A DNA stretch of 26,082 nucleotides from a virus. Within the stretch, counting starts at the first letter, position 1. Each line of letters starts with the position of its first letter. Positions 1,321 through 17,580 of this stretch are shown one piece after another. Location of the stretch: IMG/VR virus record IMGVR_UViG_3300035698_031992, positions 1-26,082 of that record, one strand, 5' to 3'. A program made the position numbers and the translations under genes. The notes under the pieces are model-generated. The model was given only the letters and a program-made list of their open reading frames with translations. It was not told the origin of the DNA and did no database searches.

Positions 1321-2427
1321 TTACTTCTCTTCCAGGGCCGCCTCCAACCCGTGCCGCGCCGCCATCGTGCCGACCGACATGGCTCCGTTGCGGACCAGGA
1401 TCTGATCGGCTTGCGCTTCGCGCAGGCGGTCGCGAACTGCCAGACTGGGCGGGACGGCTTGAATATCAACAGCGGCCGGCGTTTCCGCGGCCAGACGGCC
1501 CGAGTGTACCGCATGTTCAATCACGCGCCGCAACACCTCGCGGTCGTCTTCGAGCATATCGTGTTGCAAGCGCTCGAACATCCGCACGGCCGGGCCCTCG
1601 GCCACCATGGTCGAAGAGTAGCTGGCGTTACTGGCGTCGCTGCTCAACATGAACTCGGGCATCACAAGCCGCGCGGCGATTGCCCGCAGTTCGGCTTGCA
1701 ACACGCGGATGAACTGCCCGGCGTCGATCCCCGCGGCGGGAAACTCATAGTCGGTTCCGCCGAAGGCGTCGAGGATCGTGCCCGGCTCGTAGCGGCGGAA
1801 GTGGCTCGACGCGCCGCTGGCCCGATTGGTGACGGTCGCGTCGGCCCCGTCGGCGACGAACTGCTCGACACTTTCGCGGTTGCCGGCATTATGCTTGCGG
1901 ATCAGGGCAATGGCCGATTGAATCTCGGAGACCACGCTCATGTTTCGCAGCAGCTTTTCCGCCCGCCGCAGGTTCTTTCGCACGGGGTAATAGAGCGGCA
2001 GACCGCGTTTGACGTTGGCGTCGACGTTGGCCTTGCGGTGCTGGATGGCCGCGGACTCGACCAGCCGCCCGTCGATATAATAGCCCTGCACGGTTTCCAC
2101 GTCCGCCGGGTCGGTTTGGATACCGAACGAAGCCGCCGCGTCGTCGGCTTTTTCACGCGGCGTGGCGATTTGCGTGGGCTCGACGAACCGCACGCGCGTG
2201 ACGCCGTCGGGCGAAAAGAAGAACCGCAAAAATGCCTCGCCGTCGCGGTCGCGGCGCCGCACCAGTTCCTGCTGGCGGCTGTGCCAACGGTTGATTTCGA
2301 GGAACTCGTCAATCACTTCTGCGGCAGCCTCGATCATACTTTCGTCAACCGCCGACTGCGGACGCCGCCGCTTGGGAACTACTCGATACGCGTGCCCCGT
2401 GCCCACGATGTAGTTGATGCGGTTTTC
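1321..2427 (-). pseudogene. Portal protein gene, 3' part (interrupted by the integrated element)
   Basis: Codons 94-461 of a lambda-type (gpB-like) phage portal protein, the dodecameric channel through which DNA is packaged. The fragment begins at the GAA codon shared with the other half and continues ENRINYIVGTGHAYRV, the second half of the family motif 'N-x-A...VVGTG'. The middle and C-terminal regions follow (VRFVEPTQIATP, LYYPVRKNLRRAEKLLRNMSVV, ELRAIAARLVMPEFMLS). In the integrated state, ATGs at 2439 and 2436 contributed by the element could start a 372-aa product (1321-2439), but they lack a good ribosome binding site. The first 94 codons lie at 17848-17567. Joined, the two give an uninterrupted 461-codon frame of normal family length. 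The gene is therefore broken by insertion, not decayed, and exact excision would repair it. Confidence 0.93.
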
Positions 2428-2444
2428 AACCCACATCACAAAAC
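2407..2444. other. attL: left attachment site of the integrated element
   Basis: Left junction. The outer half (to 2424) is portal coding DNA; the inner half is element DNA. The crossover core is TTC at 2425-2427, identical to TTC at 17567-17569. The element-side arm CCACATCACAAAAC (2431-2444) is the inverted partner of GTTTTGTCACGTGG (17551-17564), matching at 12 of 14 positions. This is the half-site layout expected of a large serine integrase attP. Confidence 0.9.
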
Positions 2445-2672
2445 ATACAAGTTGTTTTCACCCGTCAAGACGTCTTCGGACTGGACCCTTCAGAACGTGC
2501 TGCTGCGGCTGTACGGGGCTTGTTTGACGGGTCGGCTGTTCAGTCGGTTGCCGTTGCTGAAGCCCTTGAGATGACGCCACGCGGGGCACAGAGGGCCCTT
2601 GGGGCAGCAAGGGACTGTGGACTCGTTCGGCTAGCACAATTCACCGGTTGGCTTCCTTGCGAAAACGGGTAA
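2427..2672 (+). other. Displaced 3' coding segment of the serine integrase (81 codons, winged-helix-like)
   Basis: Starting at the last base of the att core, a stop-free plus-strand frame runs 81 codons to TAA at 2670-2672. It has no start codon or ribosome binding site of its own in the integrated state. In the circular element the integrase frame passes through the core (codon 549 CTT, then CAA at 2427-2429) and continues exactly into this frame, giving a protein of about 630 aa. The segment reads like real protein: an alpha-helical stretch then VAVAEALEMTPRGAQRALGA followed by CGLVRL, the helix-turn-helix plus wing pattern of winged-helix DNA-binding domains. What is seen is the open frame, its register and its protein-like composition. 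That it is translated as part of the integrase is inferred. Confidence 0.75.
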
Positions 2673-2800
2673 AATACTAAATACACATTGCCGGGTAGGC
2701 CGCGACGGTGGCCAAATATGTCGGGTAGGTTGAGCGGGCTTCCTTCAATGCCTAGTATCAACCGCCCGGCTGGCCCGGCTTAAAATTGAAGGATTCTATT

Positions 2801-3841
2801 GTGGACAAGACAGACCTCCCCGACCTTATTAGGGTTTTCATCGATCAAGTTGACGGCCACGTTTATCAGGTGGGCAATTACACCAAGCACGCCGCCGAAC
2901 TTTCGGACCTGACCCGGCGCGGCCTTAAGGGATCAGGCATGGATGACATGCTGACAAATAACAACGACCTCCGCGCGGAAATCCTAAATAGTCAGCAAGC
3001 AGTATGTTGCGCCATCAAGAAGGTGGCCTCACTCATCGGCCCATCTAAAGCTATCACGCGGAATCTACTGGCGTTTCATGTCGCGGTGGACACCGAGCCA
3101 ACCGTGGGTGGACATGACACCATGCGGGCGGCGTGGGAGAATCTCAAGCCGGAATTGCAGGTGATTGTTCTTCAGGGTTCGATGCTGGAAGATGACGGCG
3201 ATTCGCCACCAGTTGACAAACCGCCGGCCGTTGCTGGTCAGTCGCAATATGCACTCAAAGAAGAGGCCGGCACGTGGACAGTGAGGTTCGAAGGAAAGCA
3301 GGCGCAATTCACGGATGGGCCGGGAGCGCTGGCGGACATCCATCATATCCTGACGGAATACTCCCAAAACCCTGATTCAAAGATTGATATTTTTGATCTG
3401 CCTAGAAACAAAGATCGGTTGAGAGATGGACCGCAAGAGAAAGCAGACGGGGATAAAGCCGCACTGCAAAAGGCGAAAGCAGCCGATAGGAGCGAATATT
3501 CCAAGTCCCTCAAAGGGATCTACGACCTAGAGCAGGAAATCAAAGAAATTCAGGATTCCAGTAATCCCGCAAGGCTAGCTGAATTACCCGAAACCGAGGA
3601 AGAACTAGCCAATCTCCAGAAGATTCACAATGCTAATTTCGGCAAAGGTGGTAAACGGCGAGACATGGGCAGCGAAAGCGCAAAAGCCGTCGATGCTACA
3701 AAAAAAAGAATTCAGCGGTTGAGAAAAAAACTTCTCAGCGACAAGGTAGGGCTCGGATGTCTTGCCGATCACCTGGATTCCCTGGATATAGGCGAGACTT
3801 GCCAGTATAAACCCGGCGTGAAGATACCCTGGGATCTCTAA
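2801..3841 (+). CDS. Protein with actinobacterial regulator-type C-terminal domain, function unknown
   Basis: About 346 aa from a GTG at 2801, which has GAAGGA eight bases upstream; an in-frame TTG at 2786 is the alternative. The N-terminal 130 residues are helical and unrecognised. Around residues 165-205 comes a WTVRFEGKQAQFTDGPGALA...IDIFDL segment, followed by a charged coiled coil and a terminal CLADHLDSLDIGETCQYKP. This architecture (a 'W.VR..G....D..G...L..LL......V..LDL' module, a coiled coil, then 'H...S...G..C.Y.P') is one I know from C-terminal regions of actinobacterial and planctomycete regulatory or hypothetical proteins. It is the first complete gene inside the left end of the element. 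Function is unknown, and a role in sensing or protein-protein contacts would be speculation. Confidence 0.72.
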   Translation: MDKTDLPDLIRVFIDQVDGHVYQVGNYTKHAAELSDLTRRGLKGSGMDDMLTNNNDLRAEILNSQQAVCCAIKKVASLIGPSKAITRNLLAFHVAVDTEPTVGGHDTMRAAWENLKPELQVIVLQGSMLEDDGDSPPVDKPPAVAGQSQYALKEEAGTWTVRFEGKQAQFTDGPGALADIHHILTEYSQNPDSKIDIFDLPRNKDRLRDGPQEKADGDKAALQKAKAADRSEYSKSLKGIYDLEQEIKEIQDSSNPARLAELPETEEELANLQKIHNANFGKGGKRRDMGSESAKAVDATKKRIQRLRKKLLSDKVGLGCLADHLDSLDIGETCQYKPGVKIPWDL

Positions 3842-3857
3842 AACTTTCTTCTTTTTA

Positions 3858-3898
3858 TTTCAGGACGCGCTTTGTCCTGAAACGGACGCGACTTGTCC
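3858..3898. promoter_or_regulatory. Operator-like tandem repeats upstream of the HTH gene
   Basis: The 15-mers GGACGCGCTTTGTCC (3863-3877) and GGACGCGACTTGTCC (3884-3898) match at 13 of 15 positions and are spaced 21 bp apart, two helical turns. Each is itself a GGAC...GTCC inverted repeat, and the first extends to a perfect 9-bp stem (3858-3866 with 3874-3882). A partial third copy, GGAACAAGTCC, lies at 3969-3979, immediately before the gene at 3981. This fits binding sites for the HTH protein encoded just downstream. The first hairpin could also act as a transcription terminator for the upstream gene. Confidence 0.6.
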
Positions 3899-3913
3899 CG
3901 CAACATAGGCAGA

Positions 3914-3958
3914 GGCCTGAGTGATTAGTCCGGTGTACCCAGCACCGGCACTCAGGCC
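3914..3958. promoter_or_regulatory. Nested inverted repeat in the leader of the HTH gene
   Basis: GGCCTGAGTG (3914-3923) pairs perfectly with CACTCAGGCC (3949-3958). Inside it, CCGGTG (3930-3935) pairs with CACCGG (3943-3948), leaving a one-sided six-base bulge. The total is 16 GC-rich base pairs in 45 nt, ending 22 bp before the start codon at 3981. It may be an mRNA leader structure, a regulator-binding dyad or part of an origin; the sequence does not decide between them. Confidence 0.55.
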
Positions 3959-3980
3959 GATCCTAAGCGGAACAAGTCCA

Positions 3981-4190
3981 ATGTCCACCTGTTGTACCAC
4001 GTTGCCGACCGTGGGCGTCATCGCCCGGGCGACAGGCAAATCTATCCATGCCGTGGAATACGTTATCCGTACCCGCGACATCAAGCCCATCGGCCGCGCT
4101 GGCAATGCTCGCGTTTTCTCGTTGGCGGCCGTCCAGCGTATCAAGGGTGAACTCGCCCGCATCGACGACGAACGTGGGGGCAACTCATGA
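3981..4190 (+). CDS. Small Xis/MerR-like helix-turn-helix protein
   Basis: 69 aa from the ATG at 3981; an in-frame ATG at 3921 lies inside the nested hairpin and is a poorer choice. The segment TVGVIARATGKSIHAVEYVIRTRDIKPIGRAGNARVFSLAAVQRIKGEL has the MerR/excisionase winged-helix pattern: a helix-turn-helix, a wing carrying the basic residues, then a 'vfs..av..ik' helix. Its stop overlaps the next start (ATGA), placing it at the head of a coupled operon with the topoisomerase-like genes. Proteins this size and shape near an attachment site often serve as recombination directionality factors or repressors. I infer that either role is possible. The operator-like repeats upstream suggest autoregulation. 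Confidence 0.7.
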   Translation: MSTCCTTLPTVGVIARATGKSIHAVEYVIRTRDIKPIGRAGNARVFSLAAVQRIKGELARIDDERGGNS

Positions 4191-4339
4191 TCGCTCCCGC
4201 CAAACAGCCCTGCCCCCTGCCCATCACCATCCCCGATCAACTGGTCGAGCCTCCCCAGTCGGCAATTGAAGCCGTCGCGGCGCTGCTGCTCGACGTTGTT
4301 GATCGTGCCGGCCAAGAGGAAGTTGAGGTGGTGAAATGA
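4187..4339 (+). CDS. Small coupled ORF, 50 aa, unknown
   Basis: This ORF starts on the ATGA overlap with the HTH gene and ends on the ATGA overlap with the topoisomerase B-like gene, so all three are probably translationally coupled. The peptide is acidic, with a proline-rich beginning (MIAPAKQPCPLPITIPDQLV) and a helical AIEAVAALLLDVVDRAGQEEVEVVK end. I recognise no family. The double overlap is the main reason to call it a gene. Confidence 0.55.
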   Translation: MIAPAKQPCPLPITIPDQLVEPPQSAIEAVAALLLDVVDRAGQEEVEVVK

Positions 4340-5673
4340 ACACGACCACAAAGCTAGATCGCACCACCTTCACGACCTCCAGACTCATGGAGTTCTGCTC
4401 CGAGAAAGAGCTCGTGAATCAGACCGGCCACGATAGCGGTGATTGGCCGCTGGTTGTCCTAAAAGAACTGTCAGACAACGCATTGGACGCTTGCGAAGAG
4501 GCTGATATATCGCCCGAAATCAATATCGTCGTCAACGACAAAGGGATCACCGTAGCCGACAACGGCCCGGGCATCCCAGACGAGACCGTGGAGAAAATCC
4601 ACGACTATTTAGTTCGCGTATCCAGTCGCGAAGCATACGTTGCGCCAGATCGAGGCGCCCAAGGGAATGCCCTGAAGACGATTTTGGCCATGCCCTACGT
4701 TTTGAGCGGCGATGATCGACACGGAAGGGTGGATATCGCCACGCCCGGGAAGCAACATGAAATCGTCTTCAAGGTCGACCCAATACGGCAAGAACCGAAG
4801 ATAGAACGGATCACCCGGCCCAGTCGTAATGTAAAAAACGGCACAAAAATATTCGTCCATTGGCGAGATACAGCAAGCGATATTTTGGCCCATCACAAAT
4901 GCGATTTTTTACAATTGGCGTCTGATTACACATTTTTGAATCCACATCTAACTATCTCGATCGACTGGTTCGGAGAACAAACTACCGTCGAGGCCACCGA
5001 TCCCACCTGGCGGAAGTGGAAGCCGAACATGCCGACCTGTGCCCACTGGTACAGCCAAGAGGATATGGAACGTTTGCTGGCAGCATACATCACCCACGAC
5101 CAGGACAACGGCGGCAGTCGCTTTGTCCGCGACGTGGTGAAGGAGTTCCGCGGCCTCTCTGGCACATCCAAGCAAAAGGCCGTGCTCGACTCTTGCGGTA
5201 TGTCCAGAACGCCTCTTTATTCTCTCTGCGACGACGACGGCATGGATCACAAAGCCGTGGCCGCCCTGCTCGCGGGCATGAAGGATAATAGCGCCGAGGT
5301 GAAGCCGTCGGCCCTGGGGGTCATCGGCAAAGATCACCTTCGCCAGCGATTCATAGAACGTGGATGCGACAAAAAGACATTCCGCTACAGAAAGATTCTC
5401 GATGTGGATGATGGTATACCGGTCGTGATCGAGACGGCCTTCGCGCTACTGAAGAACGACAACGCGCGGCGGCGAACAATCACTGGTGTCAATTGGTCGG
5501 GCGCGATCGGCAACCCATTCCGGAGTCTTGGTGAAGATTATCACGACGGCCTCAGCGCTCTCTTAGAAAAACAAATGGCCGGATACCGCGAGCCCGTTCT
5601 TTTTTGCCTACACTGCGCGTGCGCTCGGGTTCGCTACACAGATCGCGGCAAGACTAACGTTGTAATCCACTAG
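4336..5673 (+). CDS. Topoisomerase VI subunit B-like GHKL ATPase
   Basis: 445 aa. It carries the Bergerat ATP-binding fold in order: N-box KELSDNALDACE (residues 43-54, with E44 and N48), G1 box DNGPGIP (75-81) and the lid/G2 box RGAQGNALKTI (106-116), all in the wording of type IIB topoisomerase B subunits. Downstream segments resemble the H2TH-like insert (MERLLAAYI...VVKEFRGLSGTSKQKAVLDSCG), which Topo VI-B has and gyrase B lacks. Length is a little shorter than archaeal Topo VI-B (about 530 aa). It overlaps the preceding gene by ATGA and is followed 12 bp later by the A-like subunit. The pair probably forms a strand-passing enzyme used in replication or segregation of the element. A nuclease/ATPase defence complex derived from Topo VI is a second possibility. 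Confidence 0.85.
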   Translation: MNTTTKLDRTTFTTSRLMEFCSEKELVNQTGHDSGDWPLVVLKELSDNALDACEEADISPEINIVVNDKGITVADNGPGIPDETVEKIHDYLVRVSSREAYVAPDRGAQGNALKTILAMPYVLSGDDRHGRVDIATPGKQHEIVFKVDPIRQEPKIERITRPSRNVKNGTKIFVHWRDTASDILAHHKCDFLQLASDYTFLNPHLTISIDWFGEQTTVEATDPTWRKWKPNMPTCAHWYSQEDMERLLAAYITHDQDNGGSRFVRDVVKEFRGLSGTSKQKAVLDSCGMSRTPLYSLCDDDGMDHKAVAALLAGMKDNSAEVKPSALGVIGKDHLRQRFIERGCDKKTFRYRKILDVDDGIPVVIETAFALLKNDNARRRTITGVNWSGAIGNPFRSLGEDYHDGLSALLEKQMAGYREPVLFCLHCACARVRYTDRGKTNVVIH

Positions 5674-5685
5674 GAGAAGAATTAA

Positions 5686-6966
5686 ATGAAGGGTGAACTA
5701 TTCACAAAGGCCATTGAATCGGTCACTGACGATTGGCGAAAGCAGCGGCAACGTGAGGATCGCGGCTGGCCCGAGGTTAAGCAACGGCGCCGCCGAGTTA
5801 TGTCTTGCAACGAATATGAATACTCCACTCGGGTAACTATCACTGACGCTGCCAACGAGTGCATGGAGGCAGCATACATGAAGGCCAGCGCCGGTGGCAC
5901 CCTGCCAGCAGCAGCGAGGCAGATTATGTATGCAGCAAGACCAACGATCCTAGCTAACGCTCGTGACCGCCACGGCAATCCGCTTCAATTGAGATCTGAG
6001 TATTTTACACAAACGCTGCTTCCGGATTACATGCGGGAATTCGGCTGCGAGGACTGGGATGTAGTATTTGACGCCCGCGGTCACCTGACCGAGCCGCACA
6101 CAAAAAAAACAGTCCCACTCGGCACGCTGGACGTGCGGAGATATTTGCGAAATGCGGCCCACGGTGGAAATGATGATATTTCTTACGAAGAGGTCGACAG
6201 GGAATATCCAACGTGCGGGCCCGACGGCAGGTACAGCGCGATCCTATTCATCGAGAAGGAAGGATTTCTGCCGTTGTTCAATGCCGTAAATCTGGCCAAG
6301 CGATACGACATTGCGATCATGTCCACCAAGGGAATGAGCGTGGTTGCCGCGCGATCTCTCGTTGAAAACATCTGCGGCGATTTCGACATTCCCCTGCTTG
6401 TTCTCCGTGACTTCGACAAGGCCGGCTTTACGATTGCCGCTACGCTCCGCAGGGATACGAAAAGGTTTCAGTTTTCCAAGGACTTTGATTGTGTTGACCT
6501 GGGGCTCCGTCTGGAGGATGTGAAGAAGTGGGATCTGTCTTCCGAGGAGGTGTTCTACAATTCTAACCCCCGCAGGGATCTCAAGAAGAACGGCGCTACG
6601 CCTGAGGAAATAGACTTCCTACATGAGGGCGGCAGTAAAAAACGACATTATGGGCGCCGGGTCGAATTGAATGCATTCAGTAGTGATGCCTTCATCCGGT
6701 GGATCGAATCAAAACTGGAGCAGCAGGGCATTAAGAAGGTGATTCCGGACACGGGCACTTTGAAGGGCGCCTATGCTCGGGCGATCAAAGTCGCCACCGT
6801 AAACAAGGCCATCGAAGACGCCCTGGGTGATGCCGACGAGGCCGCCGAATCGCACGTCATGCCCAAGACACTCATACAGCAGATCCGCCGGCGACTAAAA
6901 AAGAATCCAGAGTTGCCATGGGACCAAGTGGTCGCTGAAGTTGCGGCAAAGAAGATTAACGAATAA
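5686..6966 (+). CDS. Topoisomerase VI subunit A / Spo11-like protein with Toprim domain
   Basis: 426 aa, with AGGAGAA ahead of the ATG. Residues 76-86 (AARQIMYAARP) match the winged-helix segment of Topo VI-A that holds the DNA-cleaving tyrosine, so Tyr82 is the candidate nucleophile. A Toprim fold follows: Glu190 in ILFIEKEGF, the STKGMSVVAARSLVE helix, and the D-x-D pair Asp242/Asp244 in LLVLRDFDKAGF, which bind Mg2+. All catalytic elements of a type IIB topoisomerase A subunit are visible, and the ATPase partner is the upstream gene. Type IIB enzymes are rare in bacteria. Known bacterial ones include the fused Topo VIII of plasmids and phages; this pair is split in two, as in archaea. Activity is not proven. 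Confidence 0.85.
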   Translation: MKGELFTKAIESVTDDWRKQRQREDRGWPEVKQRRRRVMSCNEYEYSTRVTITDAANECMEAAYMKASAGGTLPAAARQIMYAARPTILANARDRHGNPLQLRSEYFTQTLLPDYMREFGCEDWDVVFDARGHLTEPHTKKTVPLGTLDVRRYLRNAAHGGNDDISYEEVDREYPTCGPDGRYSAILFIEKEGFLPLFNAVNLAKRYDIAIMSTKGMSVVAARSLVENICGDFDIPLLVLRDFDKAGFTIAATLRRDTKRFQFSKDFDCVDLGLRLEDVKKWDLSSEEVFYNSNPRRDLKKNGATPEEIDFLHEGGSKKRHYGRRVELNAFSSDAFIRWIESKLEQQGIKKVIPDTGTLKGAYARAIKVATVNKAIEDALGDADEAAESHVMPKTLIQQIRRRLKKNPELPWDQVVAEVAAKKINE

Positions 6967-6978: not shown

Positions 6979-7242
6979 ATGGACATAGCAGACGGATCTG
7001 CCCACAAATGCCAATGTGGCACCTCGGGCTCATGCCTGAAATGCCCCGGCCAAAACCTCGACGCCCTCGAAGGGATCGAAGATCGTCTCGCCAGCGACAT
7101 TAAGCGGCTATCACACATCCCAGACGAGCGTGCGGACCAGGTAGCAGGGTCTTGCCTGCAATCCCTGATCGAGCTCAAGCGAATCCGCCTGGGTATCGAC
7201 GAGCCATCCGCAAAACCACCAATAAACGAAAGCCTATTATGA
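6979..7242 (+). CDS. Small Cys-containing protein, unknown
   Basis: 87 aa, 12 bp after the Topo A-like gene and behind a weak AAAGGAACA site. The N-terminus has four cysteines in CQCGTSGSCLKC, possibly a small zinc-binding knuckle; the rest is helical. The stop overlaps the next ATG (ATGA), so it is coupled to the S49 protease. No family recognised. Confidence 0.6.
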   Translation: MDIADGSAHKCQCGTSGSCLKCPGQNLDALEGIEDRLASDIKRLSHIPDERADQVAGSCLQSLIELKRIRLGIDEPSAKPPINESLL

Positions 7243-8144
7243 AATCTTACGATTCAATTAGTTCCTTTATCAGCGGTTCCGTGTGGGCCATCCTGCCTGC
7301 AAAAATGGACGCCATGCTTGACGTTATTGATGCACGCTCGGCGGGCATATCCGTTGACGCCAAGACGGCCGAAATGATGGCGGCGGCTAACCGTCGGGCC
7401 ATCGCCCCCAGGACGCACCGCAGCGTTGGTGTGCTGCCTGTATACGGCATCCTCAGCCAGCGTATGAATCTCATGTCCGCCATGTCGGGCGGCACGTCTA
7501 CAGAACTGCTAGGCCGAGACTTCGACGCCCTCATGGCCGATGAATCAGTTGAGAGCATCATCTTGGACATCGACAGCCCCGGCGGGAACTACTACGGCAC
7601 AATGGAGATCGCCGAGAAGATCCACGCAGCCCGCGGTAGCAAGCCCATCGTGGCTGTTGCTAATAGCATGGCGGCCTCGGCTGCGTATTGGATCGGCACG
7701 GCGGCCGACGAGTTAGTGGTCACGCCCTCGGGCGACGTGGGCAGCGTGGGCGTGCTGGCCGTGCATGAGGATCACTCAAGAGCCAACGAGAAGGCTGGCA
7801 TTAAACCGTCCTACATCACATACGGCCAGAACAAGGCCGAAGCCAATCCCGACGGCCCGCTCAGCGATGAGGCGACAGACCATCTACAGCAGTCTGTCAA
7901 CCGGGCCGGCGAGACCTTCGTCCGTTCCGTGGCTAAGCATCGCGGCATTGACCCGGCAACTGTACACCAGGCGTTCGGCCAGGGGCGTTGTTATGGTGCG
8001 GTAGGAGCCGTTCGCCGTGGCATGGCTGACCGCATCGGCACGCTGGAAAGCGAGATTGACCGGCTGGCGAATGCAAAACAGCGTGCTCGCGGTCGTCGGA
8101 CGATTGCAACGCAACGCCGCCGGCTTTCCATATTGTCCCAATAA
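7239..8144 (+). CDS. S49 family serine peptidase (SppA/SohB/lambda-C type)
   Basis: 301 aa from the ATG at 7239, which overlaps the preceding stop; the longer frame beginning at 7152 runs inside the upstream gene. The S49 core is clear: VGVLPVYGIL, DIDSPGG (110-116), VANSMAASAAYWI with nucleophile Ser147, and Lys199 in GQNKAEANP as general base. The 52-residue Ser-Lys spacing equals that of SohB (178/230). There is no signal peptide or membrane anchor, so this is a cytoplasmic form like phage head-maturation proteases such as lambda gpC. It sits between replication genes rather than next to a capsid gene. A role in processing a helper phage's head proteins is inferred. The C-terminal tail is rich in arginine. 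Confidence 0.88.
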   Translation: MKSYDSISSFISGSVWAILPAKMDAMLDVIDARSAGISVDAKTAEMMAAANRRAIAPRTHRSVGVLPVYGILSQRMNLMSAMSGGTSTELLGRDFDALMADESVESIILDIDSPGGNYYGTMEIAEKIHAARGSKPIVAVANSMAASAAYWIGTAADELVVTPSGDVGSVGVLAVHEDHSRANEKAGIKPSYITYGQNKAEANPDGPLSDEATDHLQQSVNRAGETFVRSVAKHRGIDPATVHQAFGQGRCYGAVGAVRRGMADRIGTLESEIDRLANAKQRARGRRTIATQRRRLSILSQ

Positions 8145-8683: not shown

Positions 8684-9376
8684 GTGACACGGAAGGTAAA
8701 CAACTCGAAGGTAGACCGACCTAAAAACACGGTCGTCGGCCACATTAAGAACGGCTTCCTGGCCCGCATGATGCACTATTCGCCGCCGGCGGTCGCTGTT
8801 TGGCTTGCCCTGGCAAACCGGGCTGATAAATCCGGATATTGTTTCCCGTCGATCTCAACACTGCAAGACGATACCGGCTTGGCTCGCGCCTCAACCTACA
8901 AGGCGATTCGTGAGCTTAAAGAGTCAGGTGAAATTACGGTTGAATCCGGCGGCGGCATGGGCAACCCGTCTAATCATTACCAAATTGTAGGTGGTCCGGG
9001 AAATGAACTAGTTCAAAATATGAACCAGTTCAAATCAGAGACAAAGGTAGTTCATTCTGGAGACAAGGTGGTCCGTAGAATGAACTCTAACCATACACAA
9101 GAACCAAACACAGTAACCAGACGGGGAAAAACACGCCCGCGATTTGTTCCACCTTCGGTTCAGGAAGTGGCAGCCTACTGCCGCGAACGCAAAAACAACA
9201 TCGACCCTCAACACTTCGTCGACCGTAACGAATCGATCGGTTGGGTGGTCGGAAAAGCCCGCACGCCAATGAAATGTTGGAAAGCGGCCGTCCGTACTTG
9301 GGAGCGCAATGGATTTTCCAACGGCAAGCCAGAACAACTCAAACAGGAAATTCAATATCGTGATATCCGCAAATAG
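8684..9376 (+). CDS. Winged-helix replication initiator-like protein (lambda O / DnaD-like)
   Basis: 230 aa from GTG at 8684, with AGGAA ten bases upstream. Residues about 28-90 form a winged helix typical of phage initiators: SPPAVAVWLALANRADKSGY, then FPSISTLQDDTGLARASTY, KAIRELKESGEITVE and the wing GNPSNHYQIV. The linker is low in complexity and the C-terminal 70 residues are basic. The next gene is a DnaB-like helicase, the usual partner of such an initiator (lambda O with P/DnaB). An iteron-like cluster lies inside this gene at 9004-9085, as in lambda, where the origin lies within O. Its role would be to bind that origin and load the helicase. Confidence 0.75.
   Translation: MTRKVNNSKVDRPKNTVVGHIKNGFLARMMHYSPPAVAVWLALANRADKSGYCFPSISTLQDDTGLARASTYKAIRELKESGEITVESGGGMGNPSNHYQIVGGPGNELVQNMNQFKSETKVVHSGDKVVRRMNSNHTQEPNTVTRRGKTRPRFVPPSVQEVAAYCRERKNNIDPQHFVDRNESIGWVVGKARTPMKCWKAAVRTWERNGFSNGKPEQLKQEIQYRDIRK
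9004..9085. repeat. Iteron-like cluster inside the initiator gene (candidate origin)
   Basis: TGAACTAGTTCA (9004-9015, a perfect palindrome) and TGAACCAGTTCA (9021-9032) lie 17 bp apart and are both followed by AAA. GTTCATTCT (9050-9058) and AGAATGAAC (9077-9085) form a 9-bp inverted pair. The TGAAC/GTTCA half-site thus occurs six times in 82 bp. The local sequence is more AT-rich than its surroundings. The position, within an initiator gene and before a helicase gene, is that of the lambdoid origin. Confidence 0.55.
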
Positions 9377-9776
9377 TAAAACTCTCGACCCGCTCGACAC
9401 CGCGCCGCCGGCCGACGTCGAGGCCGAACGATGGGTCATCGGTTCCATCTTCCTCAGCGTCGACTTGCTCGACGATCTGGCCGGGTTGCGCGCCGACGAT
9501 TTCCATGATCCGACCAACGCGGCCGTCTTCGCGGAAATGCTTTCGCTTCACGCGCAGGGCCTACCAGTTCACAACGCCATCGTGCAAAAGCATCTTGGCA
9601 GCGACGACGCCAAATCGCGGGTCTACGAGATAGCCGCATCGGTTCCCGTAGCCCATCACGTCGAGCACTACGCCGCAATAGTGCGTGAGAAGGCCGCGCT
9701 TCGACGCCTACGCATCGTGGCAACGAATCTGCTAGCGACACCCGCTTACAGGCGGACGCGCCAGAAGCGATTCTAG
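9360..9776 (+). pseudogene. dnaB: Replicative helicase DnaB-like, N-terminal part (frameshifted)
   Basis: The start is probably GTG at 9360, behind CAGGA, overlapping the end of the initiator gene; an in-frame ATG at 9309 is also possible. The product begins PPADVEAERWVIGSIFL, the DnaB N-terminal collar domain, and proceeds through AVFAEMLSLHAQGLPVHN and VPVAHHVEHYAAIVREKAALRRLRIVATNLLA, all standard DnaB. The frame then leaves the family and stops at 9776. The continuation of the domain linker (NESASDTRLQADAPEAILERSEAALSEIR, split here as NESASDTRLQ then ADAPEAILERSEAALSEIR) is in the -1 frame from about 9722. I see no classical slippery heptamer, so a one-base indel in the region 9725-9750 (mutation or sequencing error) is likelier than programmed frameshifting. 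Confidence 0.8.
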
Positions 9777-10681
9777 AGCGGTCTGAGGCGGCATTATCCG
9801 AGATCCGTCTTGGCACCGATGAGACCGAACCGGTTACTATCCGCGCCGCGACCATGGACGCCATCGCATACGTCGATGCAATCCAGCAGCGAGGCAGCGC
9901 AGCGGGCGTGCTTACTGGTCTAGAAAGTTTCGACTGCGACCAGGGTGGTCTCTTCCCGGGCGAGTTGACAATCCTTGCCGCGCGGCCGGGTATCGGCAAG
10001 ACGTCCCTCGCGATGCAGATCGCCGATCATGTTTCGTCAAAAGGCCAGCCTGTGTACTTCGCATCGTTGGAAATGTCCGCCGTCGAGCTGTCGATCCGCC
10101 TTGCGTGCTCCACGTCTGGCGTATCGAATCGCCTCGTTCGCACCGGACGGCTGACCGAGCAGGATAACCGCAAACTCAGCGAGGCCATGAACCGCCAAGC
10201 GGACAACGCGCTCGACATCCACGACCAGCCCGGTTTGACCGTAGCCGAGATCCGACGACAAATCCGCCGCAGGAAAAAACACGGGCTGGCCCTGGCCGTC
10301 ATCGACTATCTGCAACTGCTATCAGCCGCCGACCGCCGCTTGCCGCGCGAACAACAGGTGGCGACGATCACCAAGTCGCTCAAGGAAATGGCCCGCGAAT
10401 ACTCGGTCCCCATCCTCTGTTTGTGCCAACTCAACCGGCTGGCCGATGGCCAAGAGCAACCCCAGCTCAGCCACCTCCGCGAATCTGGGGCTATTGAGCA
10501 GGACGCCGATACGGTGCTCTTCCTGGCGCCGCACACGCCCACGGACATAGCACGCAATAACGCCTCATTGATTGTTGCTAAAAACAGAAATGGCGAGGTT
10601 GGCCCCATCCCGCTGGACTGGCACCCGAGTCAGACGCGGTTTACATGCACGGAACCTATTTGTGAGGAATGGACAGGATGA
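9722..10681 (+). CDS. dnaB: Replicative helicase DnaB-like, RecA-type C-terminal domain
   Basis: The second part of the frameshifted helicase gene. An ATG at 9854 could start a separate 275-aa protein. The RecA-like motor is complete: Walker A ARPGIGKTSLAMQ, H1a YFASLEMSAVELSIRL, Walker B LAVIDYLQLL, H3 LCQLNRLADG, and the arginine-finger region LRESGAIEQDADTVLFL. It belongs to the SF4 ring helicases that unwind DNA at replication forks. Whether the C-terminal half functions alone from 9854 is open: SF4 motors can form rings without the collar, but loading usually needs it. The stop overlaps the next start (ATGA). Confidence 0.85.
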   Translation, partial: NESASDTRLQADAPEAILERSEAALSEIRLGTDETEPVTIRAATMDAIAYVDAIQQRGSAAGVLTGLESFDCDQGGLFPGELTILAARPGIGKTSLAMQIADHVSSKGQPVYFASLEMSAVELSIRLACSTSGVSNRLVRTGRLTEQDNRKLSEAMNRQADNALDIHDQPGLTVAEIRRQIRRRKKHGLALAVIDYLQLLSAADRRLPREQQVATITKSLKEMAREYSVPILCLCQLNRLADGQEQPQLSHLRESGAIEQDADTVLFLAPHTPTDIARNNASLIVAKNRNGEVGPIPLDWHPSQTRFTCTEPICEEWTG

Positions 10682-11124: not shown

Positions 11125-11454
11125 ATGACACCAAAAACCAAAGCCCCAAAGCATCTTCGGCCAGAAACCGCCGCTTGGTACGTAACCGTATGCGGCGAAT
11201 ACCAACTTGAGGACCACCACCGCCGTTTACTGCGGCTCGCGGCTGAAGCGTGGGACCGATGCCAACAAGCCCGGCAAGCCCTTGCCGACAACGGCATGGT
11301 TTACACCGACCGATTCGAGGCCCCCAGGGCACGGCCTGAAGTTTCGATAGAGCGTGATTCAAGGATCGCGTTTAGCAGAATGATCAGAGAACTGGGCTTA
11401 GATTTGGCCGAGCCCGAGATAAAACCACCAACTATTCAACCGAGGACTAGATAA
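11125..11454 (+). CDS. P27-family phage terminase small subunit
   Basis: 109 aa behind AGAGGATCACT. The sequence HLRPETAAWYVTVCGEYQL, then DHHRRLLRLAAEAWDRCQQA, GMVYTDRFEAPRARPE and RDSRIAFSRMIRELGL follows the P27 small-terminase pattern closely: an N-terminal 'L.....W', a central helical region and 'R.HP.......' followed by the oligomerising helix. TerS recognises pac or cos sites and brings DNA to the large terminase. No large terminase lies anywhere in the element, so this TerS would have to work with one supplied in trans. This is the trait that phage-inducible islands use to redirect packaging. The end overlaps the next gene (TAATG). Confidence 0.85.
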   Translation: MTPKTKAPKHLRPETAAWYVTVCGEYQLEDHHRRLLRLAAEAWDRCQQARQALADNGMVYTDRFEAPRARPEVSIERDSRIAFSRMIRELGLDLAEPEIKPPTIQPRTR

Positions 11455-12152: not shown

Positions 12153-12171
12153 TTTTTGAAAGGACATGAAA

Positions 12172-12825
12172 ATGTCAACCGTAGCGACTATTGAGAAGAT
12201 GGACTCTTGGCTTGCGAGCCGACTAGGAAGAAAGCAAATGGATAAGATCGAGAAAGAACAGGCGGCCGACACCTACGCGGCCCGCAAGGTCTTGGCTGAT
12301 CGTGTCGCCAAGATTGAAGCTGAGAGAGATGAGATCCTCGCTGACCTGACCAAAAAGGTTGACGCGTCGACAGAGCGTCACGACGTAGCCAAAACGGAGT
12401 TTGACGCGGCGCTAGCGAACATGCACGCACTACGTCGGCAACGAACGTCTGCTTGTGATTCGCGAGAGCGGGTCGCCGAAAAATTACGGCACAAGCTTCG
12501 CGAGACCTCCGACAAGAAGATCGGCGATTTCATCCACAAAACTTTTGATATGCGAGACCAGGCCCAGACAGAACAATGGCAGGAGGAGCTGCGGCGAACC
12601 GACCGACCCGGCAAGGCGTCGTGGGCTGTAATCGCTGAAGTCTTTTCGAACAAGTCCAGCATCGAGGAAAGGGTTGCGGCAATCAACAATGCCCGCGAGG
12701 CTGCAATCACGCTCCAGACGTTGGCCGTCAAAGACGTCGACGCCGAGCTTCAAAAGATCCGTGACACGATTCCGGGAGGTGACTTGCCGTTTATTAAGAC
12801 CGGCGAAGTCGACACGGAAGCGTAA
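12172..12825 (+). CDS. Coiled-coil protein, scaffold-like by position
   Basis: 217 aa from the ATG at 12172, seven bases after AGGA; the ATG at 12166 is too close to that site. Nearly the whole protein is charged helix, with a long coiled coil at about residues 20-110 (KQMDKIEKEQAADTYAARKV, IEAERDEILADLTKKVDAST and onwards). It has no membrane segment. It precedes the prohead protease gene, and helical proteins in that position are often scaffolding or head-assembly factors. There is no sequence signature to prove this; a structural or DNA-binding accessory role is equally open. Confidence 0.6.
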   Translation: MSTVATIEKMDSWLASRLGRKQMDKIEKEQAADTYAARKVLADRVAKIEAERDEILADLTKKVDASTERHDVAKTEFDAALANMHALRRQRTSACDSRERVAEKLRHKLRETSDKKIGDFIHKTFDMRDQAQTEQWQEELRRTDRPGKASWAVIAEVFSNKSSIEERVAAINNAREAAITLQTLAVKDVDAELQKIRDTIPGGDLPFIKTGEVDTEA

Positions 12826-12839
12826 CCATTATCGCGGTG

Positions 12840-12882
12840 CCCGCGCCGTCATCTTGTCGCCCGGCGGCGTGGGCTTTTTTTA
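12840..12882 (+). terminator. Rho-independent terminator between coiled-coil and protease genes
   Basis: GCCCGCGCCG and CGGCGTGGGC form a 10-bp stem (one G-U pair), followed at once by TTTTTTT. It ends 14 bp before the next start codon. It may therefore modulate rather than end transcription into the protease gene. Confidence 0.7.
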
Positions 12883-12895
12883 GAAAAGGATAAAC

Positions 12896-13549
12896 ATGAT
12901 ACTTAGTTCAAATACAATCTCGGCCCGGGCAGCATGCCCCCACACGATTGGCAGTGTGCCGGAGTGCCGTAGCGCGTTACCTGATGCCTATCAGCCTGAT
13001 GGGGCATATCCGGGCAGGGTCTACGATGCCATTGGTGATAAACTCACCGGTTGTGCCGTGAATTATAGCACTGTCTTGCGCGGTGGCGTCGGGGCAGTCG
13101 GAGAGAAAAAAGGGCCGGCAACCCCGTTAAGATTCATCCGTGGGTGTTTTTATCAGTCGTTGGCGGTCGACGCTGACGATATTGAGGTGTGCCTCAACCA
13201 TGATAAGTCACAGGTGATCTGCACGCCCGGCAACCTCTATTTGATAGACAGGCCCGACGGACTGCACTTCACCTGCTGGCCGGAAAAAAGTCGGGCGGGC
13301 TACGGGGCCGTATTGGCAGCCATCGCCGGCGAAATCAATGGCGTATCAATCAGCGGGTTTATCCGTGAAAGCACCAAGTCCCTTGGCGTCGAGCAGGTAC
13401 TGTGTTTCGAGCTTATGGAAATCTCGATCATGACCGGCCGCCAGCGACCAGCAGACAGCGAGTCTTATGTATCGTACACACGGGCGGGCGCACTTGAAGC
13501 CGCGCGAAAAGAAAAGATCGGGGCGGCGGAAGCGTATTTTGAACATTAA
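12896..13549 (+). CDS. HK97-type prohead protease (U35/S78 family)
   Basis: 217 aa behind AAAAGGATAAAC. Residues 77-130 read TPLRFIRGCFYQSLAVDADD, then IEVCLNHDKSQVICTPGNLY and DGLHFTCWPE, the standard 'pGaF...l......v.l..nHd.........l.l..D..GL.f' of herpesvirus/HK97-fold head maturation proteases. A second block, GVSISGFI then VLCFELMEISIM, matches 'g.S..f.........l.EvSl'. Catalytic candidates are His102 and Ser151, with the 49-residue spacing seen in HK97 protease (65/114). It would cleave scaffold or capsid delta domains during head assembly. No capsid gene follows, so its substrate is presumably supplied by a helper. The N-terminal 70 residues are atypical. Confidence 0.75.
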   Translation: MILSSNTISARAACPHTIGSVPECRSALPDAYQPDGAYPGRVYDAIGDKLTGCAVNYSTVLRGGVGAVGEKKGPATPLRFIRGCFYQSLAVDADDIEVCLNHDKSQVICTPGNLYLIDRPDGLHFTCWPEKSRAGYGAVLAAIAGEINGVSISGFIRESTKSLGVEQVLCFELMEISIMTGRQRPADSESYVSYTRAGALEAARKEKIGAAEAYFEH

Positions 13550-13560
13550 CAAGGTCTGTC

Positions 13561-13760
13561 ATGTCTGAAATTAACCCCGAACAGATAACTGCCATTTGTG
13601 ACACCCGCGAGCAAACCCCGCTCGACTTGTCGCCGTTGTGATCCGAGCCCGGCACACTCACCACCGGCGACTACAGCGTCCGTGGCCTGGAACATGTCGT
13701 CTCGGTCGAACGGAAAAGCCTGCCCCGTGAATGCCCACGCGGGGCGGGGTTCCTACGGGA
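13561..13760 (+). pseudogene. ERCC4-type nuclease remnant (nonsense mutation, 3' truncated)
   Basis: From ATG at 13561 the frame reads ITAICDTREQTPLDLSPL, then TGA at 13639-13641, then SEPGTLTTGDYSVRGLEHVV and SVERKSLP. This is the beginning of an ERCC4/XPF nuclease domain: the DTREQ...GTL.TGDYS...V.VERKS motif with its acidic and Lys catalytic residues. The TGA occupies a site where Trp (TGG) would fit. The similarity ends near 13720, followed by a GC-rich hairpin and then the end of the convergent DUF2513 gene, so about two thirds of the usual gene is missing. Phages use such nucleases in recombination or host takeover; this copy is dead. Confidence 0.75.
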
Positions 13761-13764
13761 AGGT

Positions 13765-14127
13765 TTAAGTAACACCCTCAAGGGCAAGTTTAGTCACCAG
13801 TTGATTAACTACACCAAAAGCAATCGAACCGCCCTTTTCGCTAATGATATCACGAACACGCTGCCACGCAGTCTCACTACGTATTTTGTCAAGAAACTCA
13901 TGTCCGTCCCACGTTAACTCGAAAGGAAGCACGTAGATCACACGATCACTTGTTTTAGATGTTACCGGTTCACACCTCAAGAGTTTGGCGTCGTACATCA
14001 AAACAAGGTGATACTTGATTGTCAGATCGTCGTACCCATCAATAGGCGGCACTTCCACCATGTTCAGGGTTTCCTTCTCGTCAAAGAAGAAAAGCAGTTT
14101 ACGAATGAGTTCCATGTCACGTTTCAT
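13765..14127 (-). CDS. DUF2513 family protein
   Basis: 120 aa from the ATG at 14127, preceded by AAAGGGCAAC; upstream in-frame ATGs lack a site. It begins MKRDMELIRKLLFFFDEKET, the signature opening of DUF2513 proteins, and continues with YHLVLMYDAKLL...LTWDGHEFLDKIR, the winged-helix-like core of that family. DUF2513 genes are common in prophages and islands, often near toxin-antitoxin or regulatory genes, and their function is unsettled. Here it lies on the minus strand, opposite the main operon, in the regulatory segment of the element. A DNA-binding or immunity-like role is possible, but nothing shows it directly. Confidence 0.75.
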   Translation of the reverse strand: MKRDMELIRKLLFFFDEKETLNMVEVPPIDGYDDLTIKYHLVLMYDAKLLRCEPVTSKTSDRVIYVLPFELTWDGHEFLDKIRSETAWQRVRDIISEKGGSIAFGVVNQLVTKLALEGVT

Positions 14128-14205
14128 AATGTTGCCCTTTATGCAAAGTTTTAATCCTCTCACAGAATATAAATTACTCAACAACACTTATGCCACCAAC
14201 GCCCC

Positions 14206-14508
14206 CTACGGCGACGTTGGCACAAAAGTAATACGACCCTCAGAGGCGTAGTTAATGAGAATATGCATCGAATCACCGCCCGGCAGGCCAAGGCTGAATT
14301 TCTTGGCGTCGACAATCACCAGCAGAAACTTCTCGCCGGCGATGAGGCGCGTACCGAGCGGGACGATGATCTCACCAGACCGGTCCGGTGTCTTACCGAG
14401 TTCTACTTTGGTGTTCATTAGAACCTGGACAGCCATCGGTTTGTCTTCACCCCTCAGAATCCCTCGCATTCTCAACACCGTGCAGTACCTCCCCGCTATA
14501 AGATTCAT
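14206..14508 (-). CDS. Hypothetical protein in regulatory segment
   Basis: 100 aa from the ATG at 14508, with a possible later start at 14436 (MAVQVLMNTKVELGK). It is mostly beta-strand (SGEIIVPLGTRLIAGEKFLL, VIVDAKKFSLGL) and has no family I recognise. Plausible minus-strand promoter hexamers lie upstream (TTGACG, 18 bp, TAAACT, within about 14530-14560). It probably shares a transcript with the DUF2513 gene 79 bp downstream. Confidence 0.5.
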   Translation of the reverse strand: MNLIAGRYCTVLRMRGILRGEDKPMAVQVLMNTKVELGKTPDRSGEIIVPLGTRLIAGEKFLLVIVDAKKFSLGLPGGDSMHILINYASEGRITFVPTSP

Positions 14509-14591
14509 AGTATTTAGGTAAACAAACCATAGTTTAGGACCATAGTCGCCAACCCGTCAATACCCCCCCCCAGGCGGTTTAGCGTGCAGTA

Positions 14592-14619
14592 TTGACAAAC
14601 TAGCCCGGATCAGTAAGAT
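14592..14619 (+). promoter_or_regulatory. Sigma70-type promoter, rightward
   Basis: Consensus -35 TTGACA (14592-14597), 16-bp spacer, -10 TAAGAT (14614-14619). It points at the structured-RNA candidate, the membrane protein and the integrase. A weaker leftward promoter (TTGACG/TAAACT on the minus strand) lies just to its left, so the region is a divergent control point. Confidence 0.55.
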
Positions 14620-14625
14620 TACGGG

Positions 14626-14770
14626 TGATTAAACCGGAGCTTAGCTCCAGACCGCTTAAACAATGCTTATTTGTAAGACAAACGCCGTCTCTGACCGTGC
14701 CCACGTGGTGACACCGGGCGGGTATCCTAGCGGGTGCCTAATCGCGATCGGGGACGGCGTTTGTTTTTGC
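14626..14770 (+). ncRNA. Candidate structured RNA or long leader with 12-bp closing stem
   Basis: ACAAACGCCGTC (14678-14689) pairs perfectly with GACGGCGTTTGT (14753-14764), followed by TTTTGC, so the stem doubles as an intrinsic terminator. The 63-nt loop can fold further: GCCC (14699-14702) pairs with GGGC (14716-14719), enclosing GTG/CAC. A consensus promoter sits directly upstream (14592-14619), and no ORF with a ribosome binding site lies between. A terminated transcript of about 145 nt would result, either a small RNA or an attenuator in the leader of the membrane-protein and integrase genes. The 5' end is inferred from promoter spacing. The family is unrecognised. Confidence 0.5.
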
Positions 14771-14806
14771 GCGCGCTCATAGAGTGTGCCAAGGAGAATC
14801 TATCTC

Positions 14807-14937
14807 ATGGCTAAGCAACATCAATTCAAACACCGGATCCCCGGTTCAAAGGCTGCAAGATAGAGTCCCGGCTATTGCCGGTAATGCGAACCGGCGTGCG
14901 TATCGTGCTGGACGTGCCGATTGAGAGTGATACGTAA
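14807..14937 (+). pseudogene. Short ORF, probably frameshifted
   Basis: ATG at 14807 has a good AAGGAGA site but stops after 18 codons (TAG 14861-14863). A +2/-1 shifted frame then continues with protein-like KIESRLLPVMRTGVRIVLDV and stops at 14935-14937. A single indel near 14850 would join them into a small protein of about 43 residues. Either a small decayed gene or an upstream regulatory ORF. Confidence 0.35.
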
Positions 14938-14956
14938 GTAAAACCCCCGCGTGAGA

Positions 14957-14985
14957 CGCCCGGCGGGTTTCGGCTCGCCGGGCTG
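14957..14985 (+). terminator. GC-rich hairpin before the membrane-protein gene
   Basis: GCCCGGCG and CGCCGGGC form an 8-bp stem around a GGTTTCGGCT loop. Only a weak T-tract (TGTTT) follows, so this may be an attenuator rather than a full terminator. Confidence 0.4.
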
Positions 14986-15009
14986 TTTAACCTTAAAGGA
15001 GAAACGATA

Positions 15010-15918
15010 ATGGCGACAGAAGGCAAAACGAAGAAAAAAAGTAAATGCAGAACCATTTGCATGTGGTTATTGGGGGTCATAGGATTTCTCGCAATCGTTT
15101 TCATTTGGTGGTACGTTGGCCAGTGGCCGATGAGTTTGGTGACGAAAGAAAGCCCCACGCTGGCCGACTACGGTGCTTTCGGTGACATGTTCGGCTTTGT
15201 CAATTCACTCTTTTCGGCGCTGGCCCTTTTCGCGATTGTCATAACGTTGTGGATGCAGAGGGAAGAGCTCAGGATGCAACGGGAACTACAAATGCAGGCC
15301 CAGGAAGAATGGAAGAAAACCGTGGAGGCCCAGACAAGATCTGCTAAAGCCCAAGAAGAGGCGGCGAAAATTCAAGAGAAAGCCACCGAGGTGCAACAGT
15401 GGCAGGTGGCCACAACGAAGTTTGCCATCTACATGCAAGGCGTTATCGCACTGCAGCAGTCACCGCCTGTTGAACAACTCACAATTCAACAAGCAGCTTT
15501 TCTTGAGAGAATAGCCAGCATGGTTAGCAACATAGAGGAGCACGATGAAGAGATAGCTGATTGTGTCTCGACGCCAGAAGTGCTTTCACTGGTAATTCAC
15601 CGGCTGCTAAATATTAAAAGAACCTACATGCGTCGGTGGGAGGATGAAGCAAAAAACTCGGGGGATGTGCGTGCGACCGGTGCTTTGGTGGCAAGGGACG
15701 CTAGAGTCGAAATGGAAAAAATTATTGACGACATCCCCTCTGGATATTCAGGTGCTTTTCGTGAGATCTTAAAATATTTTATATTTTTGGAAAAACTAGC
15801 ACAAGTAAGCAAGACAACTGATGAATATAAAGTAATGAACGAAGGTGTAGAAGAAAGGATAACTGTGCTTTGCGGCAACCTGTCGGAGTATTTGACAGTA
15901 AAAAACAAAAAGGATTGA
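15010..15918 (+). CDS. Two-TM membrane protein resembling putative phage abortive-infection proteins
   Basis: 302 aa with AAAGGAGAAAC upstream. A basic N-terminus is followed by TM1 (MWLLGVIGFLAIVFIWWYVG), a periplasmic loop with DYGAFGDMFGFVNSLFSALA running into TM2, then LFAIVITLWMQREELRMQRE and a long cytoplasmic coiled coil (about residues 85-135). The 'G.fGD.fG..N.l.s.la...ii.tl..Q..EL..qR.EL' wording is that of the 'putative phage abortive infection protein' type of membrane proteins. The C-terminal 160 residues are helical. It lies 3 bp before the integrase gene, a usual place for cargo. I infer a phage-exclusion role; function has not been shown for most members. Confidence 0.65.
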   Translation: MATEGKTKKKSKCRTICMWLLGVIGFLAIVFIWWYVGQWPMSLVTKESPTLADYGAFGDMFGFVNSLFSALALFAIVITLWMQREELRMQRELQMQAQEEWKKTVEAQTRSAKAQEEAAKIQEKATEVQQWQVATTKFAIYMQGVIALQQSPPVEQLTIQQAAFLERIASMVSNIEEHDEEIADCVSTPEVLSLVIHRLLNIKRTYMRRWEDEAKNSGDVRATGALVARDARVEMEKIIDDIPSGYSGAFREILKYFIFLEKLAQVSKTTDEYKVMNEGVEERITVLCGNLSEYLTVKNKKD

Positions 15919-15921
15919 CCA

Positions 15922-17580
15922 ATGAAAAAACTCACCCCAGCGGTTGCATACATCCGCATGTCGAGCGACCGGCAGGAAGCCAGCCCCGACCAGCAGCGCG
16001 AGGAAGTCGCCAAACTGGCCAAGCGCAAGGGCTTTCAAATCGTCCGCGAATACTTCGACGAAGGAATCAGCGGAGACGCCACCGAAAAACGTAAAGACTT
16101 TCAGCGGATGGTCCGCGACGCTGAGGAAAAGGGCGACTTCGCTGTTATCCTCTGTTGGGACCAAGACCGCTTCGGGCGCTTCGATTCAATCGAGGCTGGC
16201 CGATGGATCTACCCATTACGCAATGCGGGTGTGTGGCTCGAAACCGTGGGGCAAGGGTCCATTGATTGGAATGACTTCACGGGTCGCGTGATGTACGGCA
16301 TTCTCCAGGAAGGCAAGCATCAATTCCTGGTGGACCTATCCAAGAATATCTTACGTGGAAAGATCCAGGCAGCCAAGCAGGGGCGCGGCGCCGGAAATCC
16401 GGCTTGGGGTATGGATCGTGCTTACTATGATCCCAGTGGGAAACTGGTAAAGCGGGTTCCGTATGGCGAAAACTTTTCGAAGCCGAGAGGGTGGACCATG
16501 CGATTTGTCGCGTCAGAGGACACTGAGGCCGTCGAAATAGTCCAATGGATCTTCGACACTTTCGCCAATAGCGACTGTGGCATGTCCTGGATTGCCGGAG
16601 ACCTTAACCGGCGCGGCGTGAAGTCTCCCAAAGGTAAAGCCTGGAGCGTCCAAACCATCCGGGGCATCCTCACGCGCCGCGTCTACTCCGGGGCAAACGT
16701 GTTTGGGGCCAACCGATACGGCAAGTACCACCACATGGGCGACAACGGGGAAGCGACCAAGGGCAAGAGCGGTTCCCGCGATGGCGACCCTATCATCGTT
16801 GCGGACATCCACGACGCCCTGGTGGATCTGGAGAAGTTCGAGCGATGCCAGCAGAAGTTAGCTGAGCGAGCCACTAAAGGACGAAGCCCACGTTATAGCC
16901 GCTACCTACTCAGTGGCGTGCTGCGCTGCGGCCACTGCGGCGGCGCCATGGTCGGCAAAGGATACGCCAAGGGCAATGTGCCGCGATACTACGCTTGTGT
17001 CACCGGCCAGAATAGACCAGGTGCGTGCTGCCGTTATCAGGTTCGCCAAGACGCCATGGAAGACTACGTCTTGGGGTTGCTGGAAAAGCAACTGCTATCC
17101 AAGCAGGCCGTCGACCAGATCACCCGAGCGATACACCGACAGGCCAAGAGCCGCACTGGCTTCAAGGATCACACCAAGGCCCTCAAATCGCAGATCGAGA
17201 CGCTAGACCGGAAGATAGCCAAGGGCAACGAGAACTTGCTGCTGGCTGCTGCGGATCACGTGGCGGATCTGTCGACGTTGCTAGGGGAGTGGAAGTCCGA
17301 GCGGGACCGACTCCAAAAGGAACTGGAGCGAACGGCGACCAGCCCAGACGGCAAAACGACCGAGAGCCGAACCAAGCAGGCCGTGGCTGAGATAGAACGG
17401 CTTCGAAAACATATGAAGACCGGCGACCCTATGAAGATGCGGGGCGTGATTCAGGACATCGTAGAGGATATCGAGCTTTGGTGGGAGCCCTACGGCAAGC
17501 GAAATAAACGGCTGGCGCGGGGCGTTTTAAGCTACCGGAAGGACTTGGAGGTTTTGTCACGTGGCCTTCGTGGCCGTTGA
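15922..17580 (+). CDS. Large serine integrase (C-terminus altered by integration)
   Basis: 552 aa in the integrated state. The N-terminal catalytic domain begins AVAYIRMSSDRQEASPDQQR (nucleophile probably Ser14). The recombinase domain includes GGNPAWG-type AGNPAWGMDR and GMSWIAGDLNRRGVKSPKGK, and the zinc ribbon has CGHCGG then a second Cys pair (YYACVTGQ, GACC). A coiled coil at about 415-500 and a closing ELWWEPYGKRNKRLARGVLS strand follow. It catalyses integration through a Ser-DNA covalent intermediate. The last three codons and the stop (17570-17580) lie beyond the crossover core and come from the portal gene. In the circular element the frame runs on into 2427-2672, giving about 630 aa. 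The gene points outward into the right attachment site, antisense to the portal fragment. Confidence 0.95.
   Translation: MKKLTPAVAYIRMSSDRQEASPDQQREEVAKLAKRKGFQIVREYFDEGISGDATEKRKDFQRMVRDAEEKGDFAVILCWDQDRFGRFDSIEAGRWIYPLRNAGVWLETVGQGSIDWNDFTGRVMYGILQEGKHQFLVDLSKNILRGKIQAAKQGRGAGNPAWGMDRAYYDPSGKLVKRVPYGENFSKPRGWTMRFVASEDTEAVEIVQWIFDTFANSDCGMSWIAGDLNRRGVKSPKGKAWSVQTIRGILTRRVYSGANVFGANRYGKYHHMGDNGEATKGKSGSRDGDPIIVADIHDALVDLEKFERCQQKLAERATKGRSPRYSRYLLSGVLRCGHCGGAMVGKGYAKGNVPRYYACVTGQNRPGACCRYQVRQDAMEDYVLGLLEKQLLSKQAVDQITRAIHRQAKSRTGFKDHTKALKSQIETLDRKIAKGNENLLLAAADHVADLSTLLGEWKSERDRLQKELERTATSPDGKTTESRTKQAVAEIERLRKHMKTGDPMKMRGVIQDIVEDIELWWEPYGKRNKRLARGVLSYRKDLEVLSRGLRGR

Follow-up and report, generated by a model that had tools for sequence, protein, structure and literature searches.

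What becomes of an integrase gene when the site through which its element integrates lies within the gene itself? This question is raised by a 26,082-nt IMG/VR virus contig (IMGVR_UViG_3300035698_031992, single strand; the whole stretch is called the window here), for which a first-pass annotation had claimed that integration truncates the integrase. Joining the element ends and the portal flanks confirmed this claim: a planctomycete mobile element is inserted in a phage portal gene via a site within its own integrase gene. The features of the insertion are as follows.

1321-2427, minus strand: portal gene, C-terminal part (PF05136 and phrog_21; restored frame)
2386-2467: attL, crossover dinucleotide TC at 2426-2427
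2427-2672, plus strand: C-terminal extension of the circular-form integrase, 81 codons and a stop, predicted winged helix, orphaned when integrated
2427-17568: integrated element, 15,142 bp by reconstruction
15922-17580, plus strand: large serine integrase, integrated form, 552 aa (PF00239, PF07508, PF13408; reconstruction)
17528-17609: attR, crossover dinucleotide TC at 17568-17569
17567-17848, minus strand: portal gene, N-terminal part, GTG start at 17848 (restored frame)

The insertion divides a minus-strand portal gene of lambda type; when the flanks of this gene were joined, a gapless 461-aa portal was obtained, which reads EFAINGHE/NRINYIVG across the junction (slash). The core common to attL and attR in the window is TTC. 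The reconstructed attP forms an imperfect palindrome with TC at its centre, and 19/25 arm positions match; this score was reached by 0/20,000 shuffles, the best alternative centre scored 10, and attB had no comparable symmetry. The sites of serine integrases typically combine a short core with a symmetric attP. Because the attP palindrome is centred on TC, we believe that the att sites in the window are placed correctly, and the very short identity between them, together with the symmetry of attP around the central dinucleotide, is that of large serine recombinase sites.

The integrase is the last gene of the element. Its Pfam domains follow the order of a large serine recombinase, namely Resolvase (PF00239, residues 7-155), Recombinase (PF07508, 202-316) and Zn_ribbon_recom (PF13408, 329-386), and all of them lie upstream of attP. 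The integrated form ends in SRGL/RGR and a stop, and codons 550-552 (R-G-R) with this stop come from the portal gene, as the first-pass annotation had described, read antisense. When 17568 was joined to 2427, an open frame of 630 aa was obtained, consisting of 549 codons and 81 further sense codons at 2427-2669, with the stop at 2670-2672; the earlier coordinates of these codons and both earlier lengths, 552 and 630 aa, were exact. As reconstructed, attP lies inside the integrase frame, right after the conventional integrase domains, and one gene encodes two products (about 630 vs 552 aa) determined by the state of the DNA. Precise excision would restore the portal gene and the long integrase together. 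AlphaFold modelled the 552-aa form poorly (mean pLDDT 60); all that this model indicates is that the final strands stop near residue 545, immediately ahead of attP. An open frame as long as the continuation arises by chance in 7-21% of cases per element, so the frame alone is little proof. We regard the in-frame continuation as real because it is conserved in three further elements, with similarity in that frame only.

These elements came to light among the planctomycete relatives that the 630-aa protein retrieved in scans of genomes and of viral contigs. The integrases L002 (57% identity), L016 (56%) and L003 (81%, partial) belong to elements that split portal genes at the identical codon. 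Element sizes were 10,465 bp in G001 and 14,649 bp in G002; G003 is split across contigs, and its two ends were joined by inference. In all four same-site elements, the window included, the crossover dinucleotide is TC, the integrase frame runs through attP, and the attP palindrome is kept (19, 15, 19 and 18 of 25 positions); in G002, both attP arms have changed together and the palindrome is retained. The circular and integrated lengths were 630/552, 632/554 and 654/566 aa, and G003 is partial. A continuous frame of about 630 aa was therefore present in the reconstructed circles of relatives, as the first-pass annotation had anticipated, and none of them stopped inside attP. Among uninterrupted portals, the site was read straight through in 30/30, and 29/30 would supply the integrase stop exactly three codons past the crossover, because the conserved Ile-Asn of AINGHENR is TGA or TAA on the opposite strand. 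The integrase stop is thus part of the target portal gene. No intact free copy of an element of the portal clade was found among viral contigs (searched with the domain profile and with the G005 long form), phages or plasmids.

The four segments lost on integration are 81, 81, 91 and 90 aa long, with 26-44% identity to the window segment. Of the third codon positions, 62-74% differ, compared with 35-57% of the first and second positions. The integrase frame gave a BLOSUM62 sum of 578 and 0 stops, whereas the two alternative frames scored -120 and -50 and contained 27 and 18 stops. AlphaFold predicted a winged helix for the segment (core pLDDT > 90), and its top Foldseek matches were winged-helix DNA-binding domains (best E 0.009, probability 1.0), in agreement with the winged-helix-like fold proposed earlier. 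By these predictions and comparisons, the lost segment is a real conserved domain with a predicted winged-helix fold. That the lysogen expresses the domain separately was considered and rejected: the host part of attL held no in-frame start codon before the segment in 4/4 same-site elements, and the sole candidate starts in the window segment, TTG and ATG, are both well inside it. The segment is therefore orphaned when integrated and, as the sequence reads, can be made only from the circle. Since it is conserved despite having no start codon when integrated, it must be under selection in the circular form. A degradation tag was also rejected, because the tails end in CENG, VEIE, AKTV and KMVK, which are not tag-like.

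A second portal site was found in G005, the complete genome CP036272.1 of Planctomycetes bacterium SV_7m_r, in which a 42%-identical integrase lies in a different, unrelated lambda-type portal gene. The insertion point is GHEHVDP/AKEANAQ, the core is GTCGATCC, and the element is 16,491 bp. The G005 integrase is co-oriented with the portal, whereas those of the window, G001 and G002 are antisense; its reconstructed circular form has 711 aa and two winged helices, compared with 596 aa when integrated, and its attP symmetry is weak (11/25). The left end of a viral contig (G004) matches G005 and also has two winged helices; its right end is missing from the contig. The arrangement thus recurs in at least four related elements. 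A profile built from the four same-site segments recognised the double winged-helix repeats of G005 and G004 (E 3e-4 to 6e-10 in a small test set). It also gave a weak match (E 4e-4) in G332, to the winged helix at the C-terminus of an integrase gene that is uninterrupted. The G332 gene carries the full architecture, integrase and winged helix, in a single continuous frame, and no placement of its attP was achieved. Further double winged-helix segments occur in G537 (L122, L124), G643 (L121, L125), G777 (L123) and G431 (L120); they lie at contig ends or are decayed or incomplete copies, and some have G005-like cores outside portal genes.

In the window, the interrupted portal gene adjoins the genes for the large and small terminase subunits and is thus a late gene of a phage-like cluster.

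18028-20233, minus strand: host cluster terminase, large subunit 18028-19695 and small subunit 19640-20233 (phrog_38, phrog_4102)

The TerS-TerL-portal cluster (17567-24520 in the window; also L115-L118) also contains ParB-like, ABC/GNAT-like and trypsin-like genes. It was present in 128/297 genomes of one planctomycete order, mostly once per genome, and was syntenic in the four genomes compared. The cluster could represent a prophage lineage that is very common, or else a set of genes resembling a gene-transfer agent and passed on vertically. At 17902-17982, between the portal and the terminase genes, the perfectly matching 29-bp arms of an inverted repeat enclose a 23-nt loop; this structure may be a terminator or a regulatory hairpin.

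The element itself carries the following recognisable cargo.

4336-6966, plus strand: Topo VI-like pair, GHKL ATPase (4336-5673) and Spo11/Topo VI A Toprim protein (5686-6966), by Pfam
7179-8144, plus strand: S49-type head maturation protease (phrog_53, E 2e-83; PF01343)
9854-10681, plus strand: DnaB-type helicase (PF03796)
11125-11454, plus strand: terminase small subunit of the element (phrog_83, PF05119)
12896-13549, plus strand: S78-type prohead protease (PF04586)

In view of the Topo VI-like pair, the DnaB helicase, the two head proteases and a terminase small subunit of its own, we consider it a satellite-like integrative element that targets a phage late gene. Its searched proteins included no recognisable portal, large terminase or capsid. 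The Topo VI-like genes are adjacent and are carried here by a small bacterial element. Two open frames, 9309-9776 and 9854-10681, share the DnaB-like helicase, which may reflect a split gene or a frameshift.

In the integrase tree, the window is grouped with integrases from the two portal sites, from capsid genes (L005, L078) and from a cytochrome-like gene (L004), and with G332; the support for this group was 97/95, with some long branches, and the target genes of L004, L005 and L078 were assigned by eye from the translated flank. In another clade, the end of the integrase overlaps tRNA-Pro genes, and no winged helix is present. Some copies of this clade stop inside the tRNA (RGDWI or RGDTI before the stop), whereas others run about 30 codons further, and L018 and L019, close on the tree, differ in this respect. 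Loci of this clade include L038 (9138-9251) and L076, as well as L018, L074, L075 and L079; the integrated copies end within the tRNA, and in two others the same core is followed by a conserved tail some 30 aa long. The contig of G421, a member of the same clade, yielded no second att site. Serine integrases in tRNA genes are unusual, and mycobacterial serine integrases avoid tRNA genes (PMC9262239). The tRNA-Pro clade indicates that attP can overlap the integrase 3' end even where no conserved domain is lost. On the sequences compared, an attP at the integrase 3' end is frequent in the family, and the conserved lost domain is what sets the late-gene clade apart.

We believe, with even confidence, that this is a satellite-like element with a two-form serine integrase, of which the long form integrates and the short form excises with a directionality factor. 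The long form (about 630 aa), made from the circle, would be the integration form, and its winged helix would add DNA contacts that favour attP x attB recombination or suppress the reverse reaction. Integration swaps the winged helix for three antisense portal codons and a stop, leaving the 552-aa form as the sole product that the integrated gene can encode. This short form would keep all catalytic and att-binding domains and, with a putative directionality factor, carry out excision. Loss of the domain might also lock the element in place or alter directionality, as the first-pass annotation proposed. The two-form model is supported because the four same-site elements share TC, a symmetric attP and a continuous frame; because the extension is conserved only in its frame and has no start codon when integrated; because G005 repeats the arrangement in another portal gene (711 vs 596 aa), with the left end of G004 matching; and because a winged helix is predicted, all Pfam domains are upstream of attP, and 29/30 portals give the stop. 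The failure to find a free copy of the portal clade and the tRNA-Pro clade, in which the overlap occurs without a winged helix, count against it. A further step, that the direction of the integrase is set by its own reaction with no separate regulator, the long form integrating and the leftover gene encoding only a short form suited to excision, is put forward tentatively, as a possibility that we rather doubt.

The winged helix may instead be regulatory, with the long integrase on the circle repressing its own or other promoters of the element until integration lifts this control. Its closest structural neighbours by Foldseek are transcription regulators, but winged-helix folds are also used by recombination proteins, and we consider this reading unlikely. 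It is somewhat harder still to believe that the domain is needed for integration or for stability of the long form, that its loss has no regulatory meaning, that the short form excises equally well, and that attP lies in the integrase frame merely since the att site adjoins the gene. Overlap of attP with the integrase end is indeed common in the family, including tRNA-Pro integrations without a winged helix; yet a domain dispensable at every step would not stay conserved, and an attP positioned before an entire domain carries a cost, unless this position is tolerated or of use. As for a chance open frame, wrong att placement or an assembly artefact, the chance frequency given above and the origin of the window as an IMG/VR virus contig might invite the suspicion, but the same structure occurs in independent assemblies, including the complete genome CP036272.1, and the attP symmetry and protein-level conservation speak against it; with conserved relatives ruling it out, this explanation is scarcely credible.

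SSV integrases have attP within the integrase gene, which is disrupted on integration. Archaeal tyrosine integrases of the pTN3 type are likewise disrupted by integration (PMC5495485). The element studied here is similar in that attP lies inside the integrase gene and integration disrupts that gene. However, SSV and pTN3 have tyrosine recombinases and target tRNA genes, whereas here a serine integrase is involved, a complete short integrase with its own stop persists, and the accessory domain alone is lost.

In the integration-dependent immunity of mycobacteriophages, attP lies in the repressor gene, and the part lost is an ssrA-like degradation tag (PMC9262239). The likeness to these phages drawn in the first-pass annotation holds for the outcome, since attP is in a coding gene, the 3' end of the product is removed on integration, and the form of the protein is coupled to the state of the DNA. 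It does not hold for the gene or the lost part: attP is here in the integrase instead of the repressor, the integrase is of the serine instead of the tyrosine type, and the tails carry no ssrA-like tag. Closer precedents, which the first-pass annotation does not mention, are the archaeal tyrosine integrases above and the satellites that are embedded in late genes of helper phages.

Helper-embedded PICIs are described as satellites embedded in phage late genes, portal sites included (PMC10111431). They resemble our element in being satellite-like, lying in a late gene of a phage-like cluster and disrupting it until excision. They differ in having a tyrosine integrase clade and Enterobacterales hosts, compared with a serine recombinase in planctomycetes, and in having key genes co-oriented with the late gene, whereas the integrase is antisense in the window, G001 and G002 and co-oriented only in G005; no integrase truncation is reported for them in the text read (PMC10111431). 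This comparison suggests that embedded elements came to target phage late genes a second time, with an unrelated recombinase family and in a different phylum.

The earlier remark that no serine integrase had been described this way agrees with our search: no report of a serine integrase with a conserved DNA-binding domain lost on integration was found in the open-access literature, a scope outside which most subscription journals fall. The parts are known singly (attP in an integrase gene, a tail lost on integration, late-gene embedding); their union in a serine integrase was not found within that literature and is new to that extent. The unidirectionality of serine integrases without a directionality factor is a long-studied question and the basis of many genetic tools. 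Artificial C-terminal fusion of a directionality factor to large serine integrases is reported to drive excision (PMC5737554), so that an attached domain can set the direction of recombination. Unlike in those fusions, the extra domain here is natural and is missing from the form encoded in the lysogen, and a natural family with a C-terminus altered by integration offers matched long and short forms for testing directionality.
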